Assembly: GCA_020251025.1 (NCBI GenBank)
Contig: JADCDI010000099.1
Coordinates: 1-48,652 of the forward strand
DNA: 48,652 bases
Source of the DNA: Rhodobacter sp.
GTDB lineage: Bacteria > Pseudomonadota > Alphaproteobacteria > Rhodobacterales > Rhodobacteraceae
Direction: 5' to 3'
Part shown: positions 13,815-25,194 of the stretch, piece after piece
How positions within the stretch are numbered: position 1 is the first letter of the stretch
Layout: each line of letters starts with the position of its first letter
Translations under genes and position numbers: made by a program
Notes under the pieces: model-generated
What the model was told of the DNA's origin: nothing
Databases searched by the model: none
Seen by the model: only the letters and a program-made list of their open reading frames with translations

Positions 13815-15191
13815 ATGCTGAGAACGGCCCGCACCCTTGTTCTGACACTGTCGCTGATTGCCGGGGCCGCGCCGCCGGTGTGGGCCGAAACCCTGGCCGA
13901 TGCGCTGATCGCGGCCTATCGCAACAGCAACCTTCTGGCACAGAATCAGGCGGTTCTGCGCGCGGCGGATGAAAACGTGGCCCAGGCGGTTGCAACGCTG
14001 CGCCCTGTGGTGGCTTTCGTGGCCGACGGGAGGTATGGCTATTCGGAACAGCGCATCATGGGCACCACCGTGTCTTCGGACAGGCTTTTTGCCAACTACT
14101 CGATCACCGCACAAATGACCCTGTTCGATTTCGGCCGCACGCAGCTTGCCATCGAGGCGGCAAAGGAAACCGTTCTGGCCACGCGCGAGGCGCTGATCTC
14201 GATCGAGCAGCAGGTTCTGCTGTCTGCGGTATCCGCCTTTGTCAACGTGCGCCTGCAGCAGGAATTCGTATCCTTGCGCGAAAACAACGTGCGTGTCATC
14301 GGCGAGCAGTTGCGCGCGGCGCAGGACCGGTTCGAGGTGGGCGAAGTCACCCGGACAGATGTGGCCCAGGCCGAGGCACGCCTGGCAGAGGCCAGGGCCA
14401 ACCTTGTCGTGGCCCAGGGCGATCTGGCGATCGCCCGCGAGAATTACCGCGCCGCGACCGGAAACTACCCGGGCGTGCTGTCGGCCCCGCCAGCCCCCCC
14501 GCGCACTGCCGACACGCTGGATGCGGCCCGCTCGGTCGCGCTGCGCACGCATCCTTCGATCCGTCAGGCCCAGCGCGAGGTGAAGGCGGCAGAGTTGAAC
14601 GTGGAGCGCGCCCGGGCGAACCTGCGACCGTCGATTTCGGCCCAGGCAAACCTGTCGGTCGATCAGGACGGCCTTCAGCAAAGGGGGGTTGGCCTCAACT
14701 TCAACCAGACGATCTATTCGGGCGGCGCGCTTTCGTCGGCGCTGCGCCAGTCGATGGCGAACCGCGATGCAAGTCTTGCCGGGCTTAAGCAGCGCGGCGT
14801 CGAGGTGGCCGAGAATGTCGGCACGGTCTGGAGCAATCTTGACGTGGCCGACGCCAGCATCACCGCGACCGAACAGCAGATCGCAGCCGCCCAGATCGCC
14901 TTTGACGGTGTGCGCGAAGAGGCAAGCCTTGGCGCACGCACCACCCTTGATGTGCTTGATGCCGAACAGGCCCTGCTTGATGCCCGGGCTGCGCGCCTGT
15001 CGGCGCTGGCGCAGCGTTACATCGGCATCTATCAGCTTTTGTCGTCGATGGGCCTGTTGACGGCGGACCATCTGGAACTTGGAATCCCCACCTTTGATCC
15101 GGCGGCCTATTACAACGCCGTGCGGCGCGCGCCGACAAGCGTTCAGGGCGAAAAGCTTGACCGCATCATGAAATCGGTGGGGAACGACTGA
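13815..15191 (+). CDS. tolC: TolC family outer-membrane efflux/secretion channel
   Basis: A 458-residue outer-membrane channel protein serving type I secretion and efflux. A signal peptide ends at VWA-E (residues 24/25). Two similar helical/beta halves follow, each with long amphipathic coiled-coil stretches. Typical motifs are TLFDFGRTQLAIEAAKE and TIYSGGALSSALRQS in the two halves, and VGEVTRTDVAQAEARLAEA and LGARTTLDVLDAEQALLDA at the equivalent helices. AGAGGAAT lies before the ATG. No ABC or RND partner is adjacent. Confidence 0.95.
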   Translation: MLRTARTLVLTLSLIAGAAPPVWAETLADALIAAYRNSNLLAQNQAVLRAADENVAQAVATLRPVVAFVADGRYGYSEQRIMGTTVSSDRLFANYSITAQMTLFDFGRTQLAIEAAKETVLATREALISIEQQVLLSAVSAFVNVRLQQEFVSLRENNVRVIGEQLRAAQDRFEVGEVTRTDVAQAEARLAEARANLVVAQGDLAIARENYRAATGNYPGVLSAPPAPPRTADTLDAARSVALRTHPSIRQAQREVKAAELNVERARANLRPSISAQANLSVDQDGLQQRGVGLNFNQTIYSGGALSSALRQSMANRDASLAGLKQRGVEVAENVGTVWSNLDVADASITATEQQIAAAQIAFDGVREEASLGARTTLDVLDAEQALLDARAARLSALAQRYIGIYQLLSSMGLLTADHLELGIPTFDPAAYYNAVRRAPTSVQGEKLDRIMKSVGND

Positions 15192-15312: not shown

Positions 15313-16956
15313 ATGTCGGGGACGATGTCAAAATCGGAAATCGAGGATGTCCTTTCCTCGATCCGCCGTCTTGTGACCGAGGAGCAGTTGCAGCAGCAGC
15401 GGCCCGTCGCCCGGTCTTCCGACAAGCTTGTTCTGACGCCGGCACTGCGCATAGAGACCGCCCTTCCGGAAGTGGGGCAACCTTTGCCGGTCGCCGGACC
15501 CGTGACGCCGGTTCCGGAACAGAAGGGGGATGCGTCGGCATCCGCAGCGCATCAGGCGGCTGCCGCGCTTGAAGCGGCCCTTGTGGGACACCGCGACGAC
15601 TGGGAGCCTGAGGGAGGCGAACTGCTGCCGTCACTGCGCTTGTCCATGAATTGGGATTTTCCCGCAGACAGCGAGGCCGCGGATGCGACCGGTCCGGCAG
15701 GTGCCGTCCCGGTCGGCTGGAAGCCCGCTGACCATCGGCCCGCCCCTGCCGAAGCGCCCGCCCCTGGCGAAGCGCCCTTCCAGGCCGAAGAGCTTATCCC
15801 TGCCCAGGAACCCGCCGGGCTAGAAGCGCTCATCCTTGCCGAAGCGATGGTCCCGGCAGAACCACTCACCCCTGCCGAACCGCCCGTCCCGGCCGAACCG
15901 CCCGTCCTTGCCGAAGCGCCTGCCCAGGCCGAAGCGCCCATCCCTGCCGAACCGCCCGCACGGGTAGAAGCGCTCGTCCCTGCCGAAGCGATCATCCCTG
16001 CCGAACCGCCCGTCCTTGCCGAAGCGCCTGCACAGGCCGAAGCGCCCATCCCTGCCGAACCGCCCGCACGGGTAGAAGCGCTCATCCTTGCCGAAGCGAT
16101 CATCCCTGCCGAACCGCTCGTCCTTGCCGAAGCGCCTGCACAGGCCGAAGCGGTCGTCCCTGCCGAAGCGCCCGCCGAGGCCGAACCGCTTGTCCTTGCC
16201 GAAGCGCTGGTCCTTGCCGAAGCGCCTGCACAGGCCGAACCGCCCGTCCCAGCCGAAGCGTCCGCCCAGGCCGCAGCGCCCGTCCCAGCCGAAGCGTCCA
16301 CCCGGGCCGAACCGCTTATCCTTGCCGAACCGCTCGTCCCTGCCGAACCGCCCGCCCGGGCCGAAGCGCTTATCCTTGTCGAACCGCTTATCCCTGCCGA
16401 ACCGCCCGCCGCACCGGCAGTGGACATTACGCCAGAGGAAAACATCCGCTGGGATGCCTATCTGGCCGTTCACCGGTCTGCGCCGCTTATGGCGGCAGAG
16501 CAGGCCGAACCCTGGCGCCCGGCGCCGGACCCCTGGGAAAAGCCGCCTGCCGGTCTGTCCGGGTCTTTCGGGATTGCCGATGCAGCGCATGGGCAGTGGG
16601 CCACCGGGGCCGCGCCGGAACCTGTGCCTCAGGTGCCGCCACAGTCGGCACTGCCGCCATCCGGAGCGGTTCGGGATGCGTCAGGGCTGGCGGATGCGGA
16701 TCGTCCCGCAACCCTGCCGTCCGACCGGTTTGCAGATCAGGCTGTTCCTGACCAGCCGCCGGAAGACGGGCCATCGGCCCCTCTGGCAGGGCAGGACCTT
16801 GCGCCTGGCATCGATGAGGCCCTGCTTCGTGATCTGATCCGGGATGTTCTGCGCGAGGAATTGCGCGGCGAGCTGGGACAGCGCATCACCCGCAACGTTC
16901 GCAAGCTGGTGCGCGCAGAGCTTGCCCGTGCCCTGACGGTCCGGGACCTGGCCTGA
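15313..16956 (+). CDS. PopZ-like polar scaffold candidate with hexad-repeat linker
   Basis: A 547-residue protein with three parts. Residues 6-24 (SKSEIEDVLSSIRRLVTEE) resemble the N-terminal helix of Caulobacter PopZ (EEILASIRRIISED). A long Pro/Glu/Ala-rich region follows, of which residues 144-365 are 37 back-to-back hexapeptides of pattern x-x-A-E-x-(P/L). The last ~49 residues (IDEALLRDLIRDVLREELRG onward) are charged amphipathic helices, like the PopZ oligomerisation end. PopZ forms polar condensates that anchor ParB-parS. This architecture suggests such a scaffold, but similarity is limited to short helices. The ATG at 15313 has GGGGGTGG before it; GTG 15295 and ATG 15325 are alternatives. 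Confidence 0.6.
   Translation: MSGTMSKSEIEDVLSSIRRLVTEEQLQQQRPVARSSDKLVLTPALRIETALPEVGQPLPVAGPVTPVPEQKGDASASAAHQAAAALEAALVGHRDDWEPEGGELLPSLRLSMNWDFPADSEAADATGPAGAVPVGWKPADHRPAPAEAPAPGEAPFQAEELIPAQEPAGLEALILAEAMVPAEPLTPAEPPVPAEPPVLAEAPAQAEAPIPAEPPARVEALVPAEAIIPAEPPVLAEAPAQAEAPIPAEPPARVEALILAEAIIPAEPLVLAEAPAQAEAVVPAEAPAEAEPLVLAEALVLAEAPAQAEPPVPAEASAQAAAPVPAEASTRAEPLILAEPLVPAEPPARAEALILVEPLIPAEPPAAPAVDITPEENIRWDAYLAVHRSAPLMAAEQAEPWRPAPDPWEKPPAGLSGSFGIADAAHGQWATGAAPEPVPQVPPQSALPPSGAVRDASGLADADRPATLPSDRFADQAVPDQPPEDGPSAPLAGQDLAPGIDEALLRDLIRDVLREELRGELGQRITRNVRKLVRAELARALTVRDLA
15742..16407 (+). repeat. Coding tandem repeat: 37 units of 18 bp
   Basis: Unbroken 18-bp units, usual form NNN-(CCT/CTT/CAG)-GCC-GAA-(GCG/CCG)-NNN, encode 37 hexapeptides. 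A higher-order repeat of 108 bp (six units) is nearly identical at about 15898-16005 and 16006-16113 and partly continues beyond, evidence of recent duplication by slippage or unequal crossing-over. All units keep frame. The reverse strand is also open as an artefact of the repeat. Confidence 0.95.
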
Positions 16957-22059: not shown

Positions 22060-25000
22060 TCAGGCCAGTTCGGCCAGCCGGGCCAGGGCGGCGCGCAGCT
22101 TGCCCGCCTCATCCTCGCCCTGCTCCAGCTTGTCGCGGGTCTCGTCCACCACCTCTTCCCTGGCCGAGGCCAGGAAGGCCGGGCTGGCAAGGCGGGCGCG
22201 CAGGCCGGTCAGGTCTTTTTCCAGTTTTTCCAGTGTCTTGCTCAGACGGGCCTTTTCTTCGGCAATGTCGATGACCCCGTCCAGCGGCAAGGCAAAGGTA
22301 CCGCCTTCGACGGCAATCGTGATCGCCCCCTTCGGCACTGCTGCCGCTTCGGTCAGCGTCCCGATCCGGGCAAGGCGGCGGATCAGCGCCTCGTTGCGCG
22401 CCCAGGCGGTGCGCGCGGCCTTGTCCAGCGCCAGGTGCAGCATGTCCAGCTTCAGCCCCACCGGCACATGCATCTGCGCGCGGGCCGACCGGATCTCTTC
22501 GATCAGCGCGATCACCCAGCGCATTTCGCGCATGGCTTCGGTATCGGCCAGCGTCCCGTCATGGTCAGGCCAGTCGGCATGAACCAGCATCTTTGCGCGG
22601 GTGCCCGTGGTCTGCCACAGCTCTTCGGTGATGAAGGGCATGATCGGATGCAGCAGGATCATGCACTGGTCCAGCACCCAGCCCATGGTGGCGCGGGTTT
22701 CCGCCGCCGCGGGGCCATCGAAGAGCGGCTTGGCGAATTCGACATACCAGTCGCAGACCTTGCCCCAGACAAAGCCGTAAAGCGCGTTCGCCGCCTGATC
22801 GAAGCGGTATCCTTCCAGCGCCGCATCCACCTCAACCCGCACGCGGGCCGCTTCGCCGATGATCCAGCGGTTGGCGGTGGCGGTGGCGGCGGGGGGTGCG
22901 GCACGGGTGACATGCCCGCCCCACACGCCGTTCATCTCGGCAAAGCGGCAGGCGTTCCACAGCTTCGTGCCGAAATTGCGATAACCCGCGATGCGCCGGG
23001 TATCGAGTTTCAGCACGCCGCCCAGGCTCGCCATCGCCGCATTGGCAAAGCGCAGGGCGTCGGCACCGTATTGATCGATGACTTCCAGCGGGTCGATGAC
23101 GTTGCCCAGGGATTTGGACATTTTCTTGCCCCTGGCGTCGCGGACAAGGCCGTGCAGATAGACGGTGCGGAAGGGGACGTCGTTCACCACCGCCAGCTGC
23201 ATCATCATCATCCGGGCAACCCAGAAGAACAGAATGTCCTGCCCGGTGACGAGGACCGAGGTGGGGAAGTATTTCGCCAATTCCGGCGTGGTTTCCGGCC
23301 AGCCAAGGGTGCCGATGGGCCAGAGGCCGGAGGAGAACCAGGTATCGAGCACGTCGGGGTCGCGGAAGATCAGAACCGCTTGGCCCAAGTCTGCGAGGTC
23401 ACGCAAGTGTTCACTCTGTTCGTCTTTCAAAATGCGAACTGGCAAGCCGTAGCGCTGTTCTGCCAAACGAATTGCTTCGGTCTCATTGCTTGCACAGAAC
23501 GCTTCAAGCTTCTCCCAATCCCAGAACTTACCGATCCGCCAATTCCCATCGGCGTCTCTCCGGCCAGTTGCAGAAGTTGGCCCATACCACACCGGTATCT
23601 GATGCCCCCACCAAAGCTGGCGGGAAATGCACCAAGGCTCGATATTTTCCAGCCAGTGGAAATAGGTCTTCTCGCCGCTCGGCGGGATGATCCTGGTGTC
23701 GCCGTTGCGCACCGCGTCCAGCGCGGGGCCGACGATCTGCGCGGTATCGACGAACCACTGATCGGTCAGCATCGGCTCGATCACCACCCTGGACCGGTCG
23801 CCGAAGGGCTGCATGATGGGCTTGGCTTCGACGTAAGGCACGCGTTCCAGGTGTTCCGCGCCGGTTTCCGTATCGACGGACTTTTTCAGGACCGTTACCG
23901 CCAGCCCCTCGGCGGTGATCTGATCCACCACGCGCTTGCGCGCCGCGTAGCGGTCCAGCCCGCGCAGGTCGTCGGGGACAAGGTTGATTGCGTCCACTTC
24001 CGCCTCGGTCAGGGTCCGTTCGCCCTTTGCCACGTCCATGGCAATGCGGGCGGCCTCGGCATAGGGCGCGCCATCGCTGCGCATCCGGGCGCGGGTGTCC
24101 ATCAGGCGGTAGCAGGGGATGCCGTGGCGCCTCGCCACCGCATAATCGTTGAAGTCATGCGCCCCGGTGATCTTGACGGCACCCGAGCCGAAAGCCGGGT
24201 CGGGATAGTCATCGGTGATGATCGGGATCAGGCGGCGATGATCCTTTGGCCCCACCGGAATTTCACAAAGCTTTCCAATGATTGGCGCATATCGTTCATC
24301 GGATGGGTGAACAGCCACGGCCCCGTCGCCCAGCATGGTTTCGGGCCGCGTCGTGGCGATGGAAATGTAGTCGCGCACCTCGTGCAGCGTGACGTTGCCG
24401 TCGGCATCCCTTTCGACATAGTCATAGGTCTCGCCCCCCGCGAGAGGGTATTTGAAGTGCCACATCTGCCCCGGCACTTCGATATTCTCAACCTCCAGAT
24501 CGGAAATCGCGGTTTCAAAATGCGGGTCCCAGTTGACCAGCCGCTTGCCGCGATAGATCAGCCCCTTGTTGTAAAGATCGACAAAAACCTTGATCACCGC
24601 GTCGTGAAAGTTCCCCTCCTCCCCCGCCGGTGCGCCCGGCGCGCCGGACATGGTAAAGGCTTCGCGCGACCAGTCGCAGCTTGCGCCAAGGCGTTTCAGT
24701 TGCCCGATGATGGTGCCGCGCGATGCCTTCTTCTGGTCCCAGACGCGGGCAATGAACTTCTCGCGCCCCATCGTGCGGCGGTCGGGCTCCTGGTGCAGGG
24801 CCATGTCACGCTCTGTCACCATCTGGGTGGCGATGCCTGCGTGGTCGGTTCCGGGCTGCCACAGCGTGTCAAAGCCGCGCATCCGGTGCCAGCGCACCAG
24901 AATATCCTGGAGCGTGTTGTTGAAGGCATGGCCCATATGCAGGCTGCCGGTGACATTGGGCGGCGGGATCATAATGCAGAAGGGTTCGGGCCGCGATGCA

Positions 25001-25092
25001 TTTGCCCCGGCACGGAAGGCCCCGGCCTGTTCCCAGGCGGCATAGATCCGCGCTTCGGCTTCGGTCGCGTTGAAGGTCTTTTCCATCGGCAT
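22060..25092 (-). CDS. valS: Valyl-tRNA synthetase
   Basis: A class Ia aminoacyl-tRNA synthetase of about 1010 residues charging tRNA-Val. The HIGH motif appears as GSLHMGH, the KMSKS motif as KKMSKSLGN, and the editing domain includes [12 protein letters not shown]-terminal coiled coil ([21 protein letters not shown]) is present. In-frame ATGs lie at 25101, 25092 and 25086; 25092 has GGGA at good spacing. About 23395-23600, encoding the segment after [10 protein letters not shown], is much lower in G+C (about 48-50% against 68% just outside) and differs from the sequence I recall in relatives, suggesting a recombined patch. The protein stays in frame throughout. Confidence 0.96.
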
Positions 25093-25194
25093 CGGCTGCA
25101 TCCCGCGTCTTTGCCCGGTGTCTACCCCGCGCGGTGCCGAAGGAAAAGCGTCTTTGCGGGCGGTGCACCGGGCCTGCGCACCGCCCGGAAGGGC

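Follow-up and report, generated by a model that had tools for sequence, protein, structure and literature searches.

In a 48,652-nucleotide stretch of a Rhodobacter sp. genome (assembly GCA_020251025.1, contig JADCDI010000099.1), which as a whole we call the window, an open reading frame beside a tolC-type gene almost certainly encodes a divergent orthologue, by descent, of the polar organizing protein PopZ, as judged by comparing the two ends of the protein with canonical PopZ. Between these ends lies a long linker with 37 hexapeptides. We assign a probability of about 0.8 to the combined reading that this PopZ orthologue forms a polar hub and that its linker loosens the hub, with descent as the core of that reading. 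By analogy with Caulobacter, the polar-hub role is probable, and we see an even chance that the hexapeptide array has a functional effect. The reading frame comprises 547 codons without an internal stop, and its start, MSxxMS or MSDPVTN, is of the kind common to most of the homologues shown. An initial annotation, made from the letters alone, had described an N-terminal helix, 37 hexapeptides and C-terminal helices, all three of which were confirmed by translation, in-register cutting of the array and helix prediction.

The case for PopZ rests on family profiles and synteny, because searches with the single sequence barely touch PopZ or miss it. We compared a profile of 99 family members with one of canonical PopZ proteins, each end separately. 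The canonical set came from the 30 best-scoring of 244 matching genomes, from which 24 proteins were extracted by pattern and 23 were used, 19 of them being left after removal of near-duplicates. The N-terminal ends matched with a probability of 95.5% over 24 columns and the C-terminal ends (DUF2497) with one of 94.2% over 41 columns. As controls, 100 column-shuffled targets gave at most 7.0% at the N end and 2.8% at the C end, reversed targets reached 3.0% and 0.2%, and crossed ends stayed below 1%. Searched against 177,635 distinct PDB sequences, a profile built from 25 full-length members gave a single match at E<=0.1, to residues 1-34 of 6XRY, Polar organizing protein Z, at E 0.016; the canonical PopZ profile has this entry as its single PDB match too. 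At E<=1, the PopZ_fam model matched 24 of the 25 members and DUF2497 matched 22, and both protein ends have positions that are invariant across the family. The proposal that the gene is a PopZ counterpart therefore passed the profile comparison at each terminus. The initial annotation had named a canonical PopZ elsewhere in the genome, together with another assigned function for this family, as refuting; a search of the window genome gave, at E<=10, no DUF2497 place besides this one.

The annotation had also linked the PopZ reading to the adjacent tolC, and synteny agrees. Adjacency to tolC counts as evidence since most of the canonical loci examined are arranged tolC-popZ-valS: among 30 such loci, 26 have tolC, 24 have valS and 23 have both. 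Among 29 Rhodobacteraceae relatives, tolC is present in 26 and both genes in two. In most canonical loci valS adjoins popZ, whereas in the window it lies 5 kb away on the opposite strand, and a DUF6280 gene and an EF-P-like gene are found downstream of popZ. The two relatives with both genes, the intermediates L027 and L031, retain the ancestral arrangement of tolC, popZ and valS, and the L031 protein begins with MAEQKSMDDVLASIRRIV, which stands between the canonical MEEILASIRRII and the family IEDVLSSIRRLV. In a scan of named genomes (the best 80 of 571 confirmed stretches), tolC lies upstream on the same strand in 65 of the 69 loci with a readable C end, the other four having too little upstream sequence; the remaining 11 of the 80 were omitted from this count as their C-terminal pattern was unmatched.

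Several results weigh against the identification. On its own, the window protein matches DUF2497 in Pfam at E 1.6 (residues 504-540) and PopZ_fam in NCBIfam at E 0.12 (residues 10-39); it scores 9.7 bits where the PF10691 cut-off is 27 and 13.6 bits where that of NF052660 is 125, and it finds nothing in PDB at E<=1. The WLDxNLP-type core of canonical DUF2497 is missing, with ELRGELGQRITRN in its place. Foldseek found no match for the predicted model of the window protein, which is usual for short helices within a disordered chain. An unrelated NCBIfam model also matched 7 of the 25 family members (best 1.9e-4). Because the curated cut-offs are not reached and the WLDxNLP-type core is absent, we file the gene as a divergent PopZ orthologue and not as a canonical PopZ. 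The low single-sequence scores, the matches to an unrelated model and the short, charged nature of the segments would also suit an unrelated charged coiled-coil or disordered protein whose resemblance to PopZ is compositional. We consider this very improbable, since the two profile matches are independent, stand in the right order and were obtained against composition-preserving controls, the sole PDB match is PopZ, the locus is shared down to its intermediates, and no other DUF2497 place turned up in the window genome at the threshold given above. Of the two weak single-sequence matches, one lies near the C-terminus and the other near the N-terminus, and in each case the part of the model that matches is the corresponding one.

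An AlphaFold2 model of the window protein, built with 25 sequences, contains helices at residues 7-29, 74-91, 380-387, 502-517 and 527-543 and gives most of the remaining residues low confidence (mean predicted local distance difference test score, pLDDT, 52.6), and the model of canonical PopZ has helices at residues 12-26, 138-155 and 171-210. The models are of single chains; the predicted helices at both ends and the disordered middle fit the PopZ layout but are no proof of an oligomer. The N-terminal region is reported to bear ParA/ParB recognition sites in Caulobacter PopZ (PMC5182065). The family motif LVLTPALRI is perhaps the counterpart of the canonical VLELT-type motifs, with which we equated it by eye; the VLELT-type pattern is found in 20 of the 24 canonical proteins. 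A WEPD-type pattern is present in 74 of 103 family proteins and in 1 of 24 canonical proteins. Coordinates are given in the table below.

Table. Features of the popZ-like gene and its neighbours, in window coordinates.
Feature	Position	Strand	Basis
Divergent PopZ orthologue (putative), 547 aa	15313..16956	+	open frame; both ends match canonical PopZ profiles; tolC neighbourhood
N-terminal helix, residues 7-29 (SKSEIEDVLSSIRRLVTEE...)	15331..15399	+	predicted helix, block pLDDT 82-93; profile match 95.5%
Family motif LVLTPALRI, residues 39-47	15424..15453	+	pattern in 88/103 family proteins
Family motif ALEAAL...DDWEPEG, predicted helix residues 74-91	15532..15606	+	pattern search; model
Hexapeptide array, 37 units in register, residues 143-364	15739..16404	+	in-register cut; Tandem Repeats Finder
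Youngest visible tandem duplication, two 108-bp blocks, 105/108 bases identical	15901..16116	+	block comparison
C-terminal DUF2497-type helix pair, residues 502-517 and 527-543	16816..16941	+	predicted helices; profile match 94.2%
tolC-type outer membrane efflux gene, upstream	13815..15191	+	PF02321 E 3.8e-51; synteny
valS (valyl-tRNA synthetase)	22060..25101	-	read by eye; matches valS-like sequence beside canonical popZ

Within the array, the fourth position of the unit is A in 32 of the 37 hexapeptides and the fifth is E in 35; a stricter automatic rule counts 32 hexapeptides in one run. Since Tandem Repeats Finder detects the array independently (periods of 18, 36, 54 and 108 bp, best score 578), we do not regard it as a product of chance. 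The unit number is taken from one assembly and could err by a duplication. The array has a net charge of -0.153 per residue, with 22% proline and 30% alanine, and residues 31-500 as a whole have -0.115 per residue, 19% proline and low pLDDT, so the linker is acidic, proline-rich and predicted to be disordered, more weakly than the values reported for Caulobacter. The initial annotation had described near-identical 108-bp units that arose by recent tandem duplication. The best pairs of 108-bp blocks (starts 15901/16009 and 15937/16045) are identical at 105 of 108 bases, versus a match of 77-80% for the whole array at that period in Tandem Repeats Finder, which indicates one recent 108-bp duplication on top of older ones; the description thus holds for the best pairs and for a single event, whereas the remaining duplications are older and more diverged. 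On the opposite strand, a frame of 297 codons (window 15552-16445) mirrors the array as base composition would produce and shows no signs of a gene.

Distinct orthologues (n=103, after counting once the window protein, which appears twice among 104 unique sequences) range from 167 to 582 aa, with a median of about 333, and one of them exceeds the window protein; the 24 extracted canonical proteins have at most 265 aa. Long linkers are therefore common in the family, and the oddity of the window protein is its regular repeat and copy number, not length alone. Its internal periodicity is the strongest among the 103. This length set was drawn from 132 loci that matched the C-terminal pattern, and the 12 left out because they lacked the N-terminal pattern include clear members such as L013 and L188, the latter with a frame of 633 residues, so that its protein may be longer than that of the window. 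Counted with the automatic rule, the arrays of close relatives comprise 13, 11, 8, 7, 6, 6 and 5 units and that of a further one (L065) 10, and three (P0007, P0008 and P0009) have no array. The window array is a lineage expansion, as the other close relatives that were checked have 0-13 units, and the lengthened linker of the initial annotation is borne out, the linkers of close relatives being shorter, with 8 and 7 units in two genomes of the same genus. In one locus (L027:535-1665, genome G021) we observed an independent linker expansion of many EPLILSD/GDxxEDD units, which resemble copies of a short LxL motif and not the AExP hexapeptide of the window.

The array could be the outcome of neutral slippage in a tolerant disordered region, with no effect on the hub, an explanation that touches the linker clause only and is compatible with PopZ identity. 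We rate it at somewhat below even odds. Orthologue length varies freely, and two near-identical relatives (P0002 and P0004) differ by a 12-residue, two-unit insertion and two substitutions. Differences between units by codon position are 0.246 at the first, 0.352 at the second and 0.267 at the third; with third positions no more variable than the others, there is no excess of silent changes and no sign of selection on the peptide overall, which counts against a functional linker. In contrast, the preference for A and E at unit positions 4 and 5 and the reported effect of linker length on mobility and fitness in Caulobacter (PMC9512792) argue against neutrality.

The known PopZ partner ZitP offers a further view of the protein. 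Caulobacter ZitP is reported to need W35 and a basic patch that includes R24 and R27 for PopZ binding and to target residues flanking DUF2497 (PMC5182065). The same source reports that R. sphaeroides ZitP, which has Q27, shows a mostly diffuse distribution when combined with Caulobacter PopZ and that the Q27R change makes it polar. Taking ZitP as the best zinc-ribbon match per genome (PF13717, zinc-ribbon domain only), we found one ZitP-type protein in the window genome, with R24, D25, Q27 and W35. Relative to the known PopZ-binding residues K18, R24, R27, R34 and W35, it keeps R24 and W35, has Q in place of R27, and is not basic at positions 18 and 34, which are rarely basic in the ZitP of the other families read too. 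From 31 zinc-ribbon loci of the Rhodobacteraceae group, one of which (L219) was unreadable, R24 and W35 occur together in all 30 sequences, Q27 in 26 and D25 in 25, versus R or K at position 27 in 28 of 28 other-family ribbons and at position 25 in 18. The four R27 cases come from G010, whose PopZ is the L031 intermediate, from G348 and, with two proteins, from G023; G348 and G023 have a canonical-type DUF2497. Residues 1-36 of ZitP carry a mean net charge of +3.0 in the other families (n=28) and -2.8 in the 26 Q27 proteins, while that of the DUF2497-type C-terminal stretch of PopZ is -2.1 in canonical proteins (n=23) and +3.4 in the family (n=103), a sample selected by sequence pattern that favours typical members. 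The charge rank test gives p 1.4e-9 and ignores shared ancestry.

We infer from these opposite charges a reciprocal charge inversion of one PopZ-ZitP interface, and such an inverted contact would explain the poor recruitment of R. sphaeroides ZitP by Caulobacter PopZ. We read the residue pattern of the window ZitP as rewiring, with which loss of contact is also compatible. Two points tell against this part of the reading. The charge shift probably reflects a single old, ancestral event, with two exceptions. We also rejected a perfect co-variation of PopZ and ZitP charges, as L027 (-2) goes with Q27 and L031 (0) with R27. In one locus (L182:1501-1608, minus strand) the ZitP-type gene stands back to back with an FtsE-like ATPase gene, read by eye.

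We propose that self-assembly of the window PopZ likely yields a polar hub, in which the chromosome-partitioning protein ParB and the zinc-ribbon protein ZitP would be held. The window genome has a ParB-type gene (ParB_N, E 5.1e-36) and a second, weaker ParB_N place (L271, E 6.5e-7). The C-terminal helices would oligomerise, the N-terminal helix would bind clients as in Caulobacter, and the contact with ZitP would be rewired by the charge inversion. If it acts as the doubled linker did in Caulobacter (PMC9512792), the 37-hexapeptide linker would lower condensation and make the hub looser and more fluid. A bolder version, in which the Rhodobacterales have a cryptic, electrostatically inverted PopZ-ZitP hub orthogonal to that of Caulobacter, and in which, in the lineage of the window, slippage of the in-frame hexapeptide repeat serves as an evolvable dial that changes linker length by six residues at a time and so tunes the material state of the condensate, is tentative, and we would bet against it at present.

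The gene is widespread in the family of the window genome. With the last 58 residues as query, 31 of 61 genomes matched, all of them among the 37 of the window's family group and none among the 24 outside. A twelve-member alignment found the gene in 353 of 394 sampled genomes of the family and in 316 of the 347 that are >=90% complete and <=5% contaminated. Among the named carriers are Rhodobacter sp. SW2 (R. ferrooxidans), Rhodovulum bhavnagarense, Roseobacter sp. GAI101 and species of Gemmobacter, Tabrizicola, Pseudorhodobacter, Sulfitobacter, Shimia, Loktanella and Celeribacter. The protein of Tabrizicola rongguiensis (L092) reads the same as that of a genome of the window's genus (G003, L009), which probably places the window near Tabrizicola. 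In a protein search from Rhodobacter ferrooxidans (120 of 3524 matches listed, few of them named), two of the matches listed (P0152 and P0189) have been named automatically as 'cell pole-organizing protein PopZ'. A UniRef entry (P0103) is called 'DUF2497 domain-containing protein', and most names shown are 'hypothetical protein'. No member from Cereibacter (Rhodobacter) sphaeroides is found among these 120 of 3524 matches or the 80 of 571 stretches of the named-genome scan.

It counts against our reading that 41 of the 394 family genomes have no match, and that a PF10691 search of 20 of these found canonical DUF2497 above the cut-off in only three (G348, G014 and G023). In two of the three, the frames have a canonical-type DUF2497 end and are 493 (L194, G348) and 633 (L196, G023) codons long, so long linkers occur with the canonical domain too. 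Among the other 17 genomes, 14 have a tolC match, with valS nearby in three of these loci. In G007 (L262, from about 2881 on), a 203-codon frame behind tolC with weakly PopZ-like ends and DVIANLRRLAQ near its start is perhaps a still more diverged popZ. In G387 and G036 (L256 and L257), we recognised no popZ candidate, and an EF-P-like gene lies about 880 and 460 bases downstream of tolC; a loose pattern found no candidate in the other tolC loci either, though a short or very diverged gene could escape it. Some family members may lack popZ outright. Such apparent absences, the strong divergence of the C-terminal domain and the suggestion in PMC5182065 that ZitP was appropriated for other functions in this lineage would all fit a popZ descendant that has lost its polar-hub role and become a disordered adaptor, with ZitP reassigned as well. 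We think this unlikely, because both ends are conserved family-wide, with invariant positions at each, and because R24 and W35 of ZitP were kept in every one of the 30 sequences read, which would be unexpected had the interaction been dropped.

According to a 2016 paper, many Rhodobacterales are without a conspicuous PopZ (PMC5182065), and a statement in PMC6414705 is that R. sphaeroides contains none. In published titles and abstracts, mainly of the open literature, we found no PopZ described for Rhodobacterales, and an earlier description is possible. With a divergent popZ at the ancestral locus of 353 among 394 sampled family genomes, this large group would have a candidate polar organiser, and a natural partner would be available for testing in the published R27Q/Q27R ZitP experiment. 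Otherwise similar proteins with 5, 6, 7, 8, 10, 11, 13 and 37 units form a natural series that makes the tuning of condensates by linker length in evolution directly testable.

Canonical PopZ (DUF2497, PF10691; NF052660; PDB 6XRY) resembles the window protein in its N-terminal helix, its acidic, proline-containing disordered middle, its C-terminal helical domain, its tolC neighbourhood and its single copy per genome. The window protein differs in its extra family motifs and its much longer linker with 37 hexapeptides, and its family has IEDVLSSIRRLV instead of MEEILASIRRII at the N end and ELRGELGQRITRNVRKLVR instead of LKEWLDQNLPxxVERLV at the C end, where the stretch is net positive and not net negative. 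In ZitP, the window zinc ribbon shares R24 and W35 with those of Caulobacter and R. sphaeroides (PMC5182065) and has D25 and Q27 where 18 of 28 and 28 of 28 other-family ribbons, respectively, have K or R. The Caulobacter PopZ linker is reported to have 78 residues, 29% proline and a net charge of -0.28 per residue, compared with -0.115 for residues 31-500 of the window protein; doubling it raised saturation concentration and mobility and gave fluid condensates at a fitness cost, which an enlarged oligomerisation domain repaired (PMC9512792). The engineered PopZ IDR-156 of that study has the same layout with a lengthened disordered linker, whereas the window linker occurs in nature, is far longer, with about 470 residues separating the end helices, and is built of regular hexapeptides, and it is joined to a diverged C-terminal domain of its own that could compensate.
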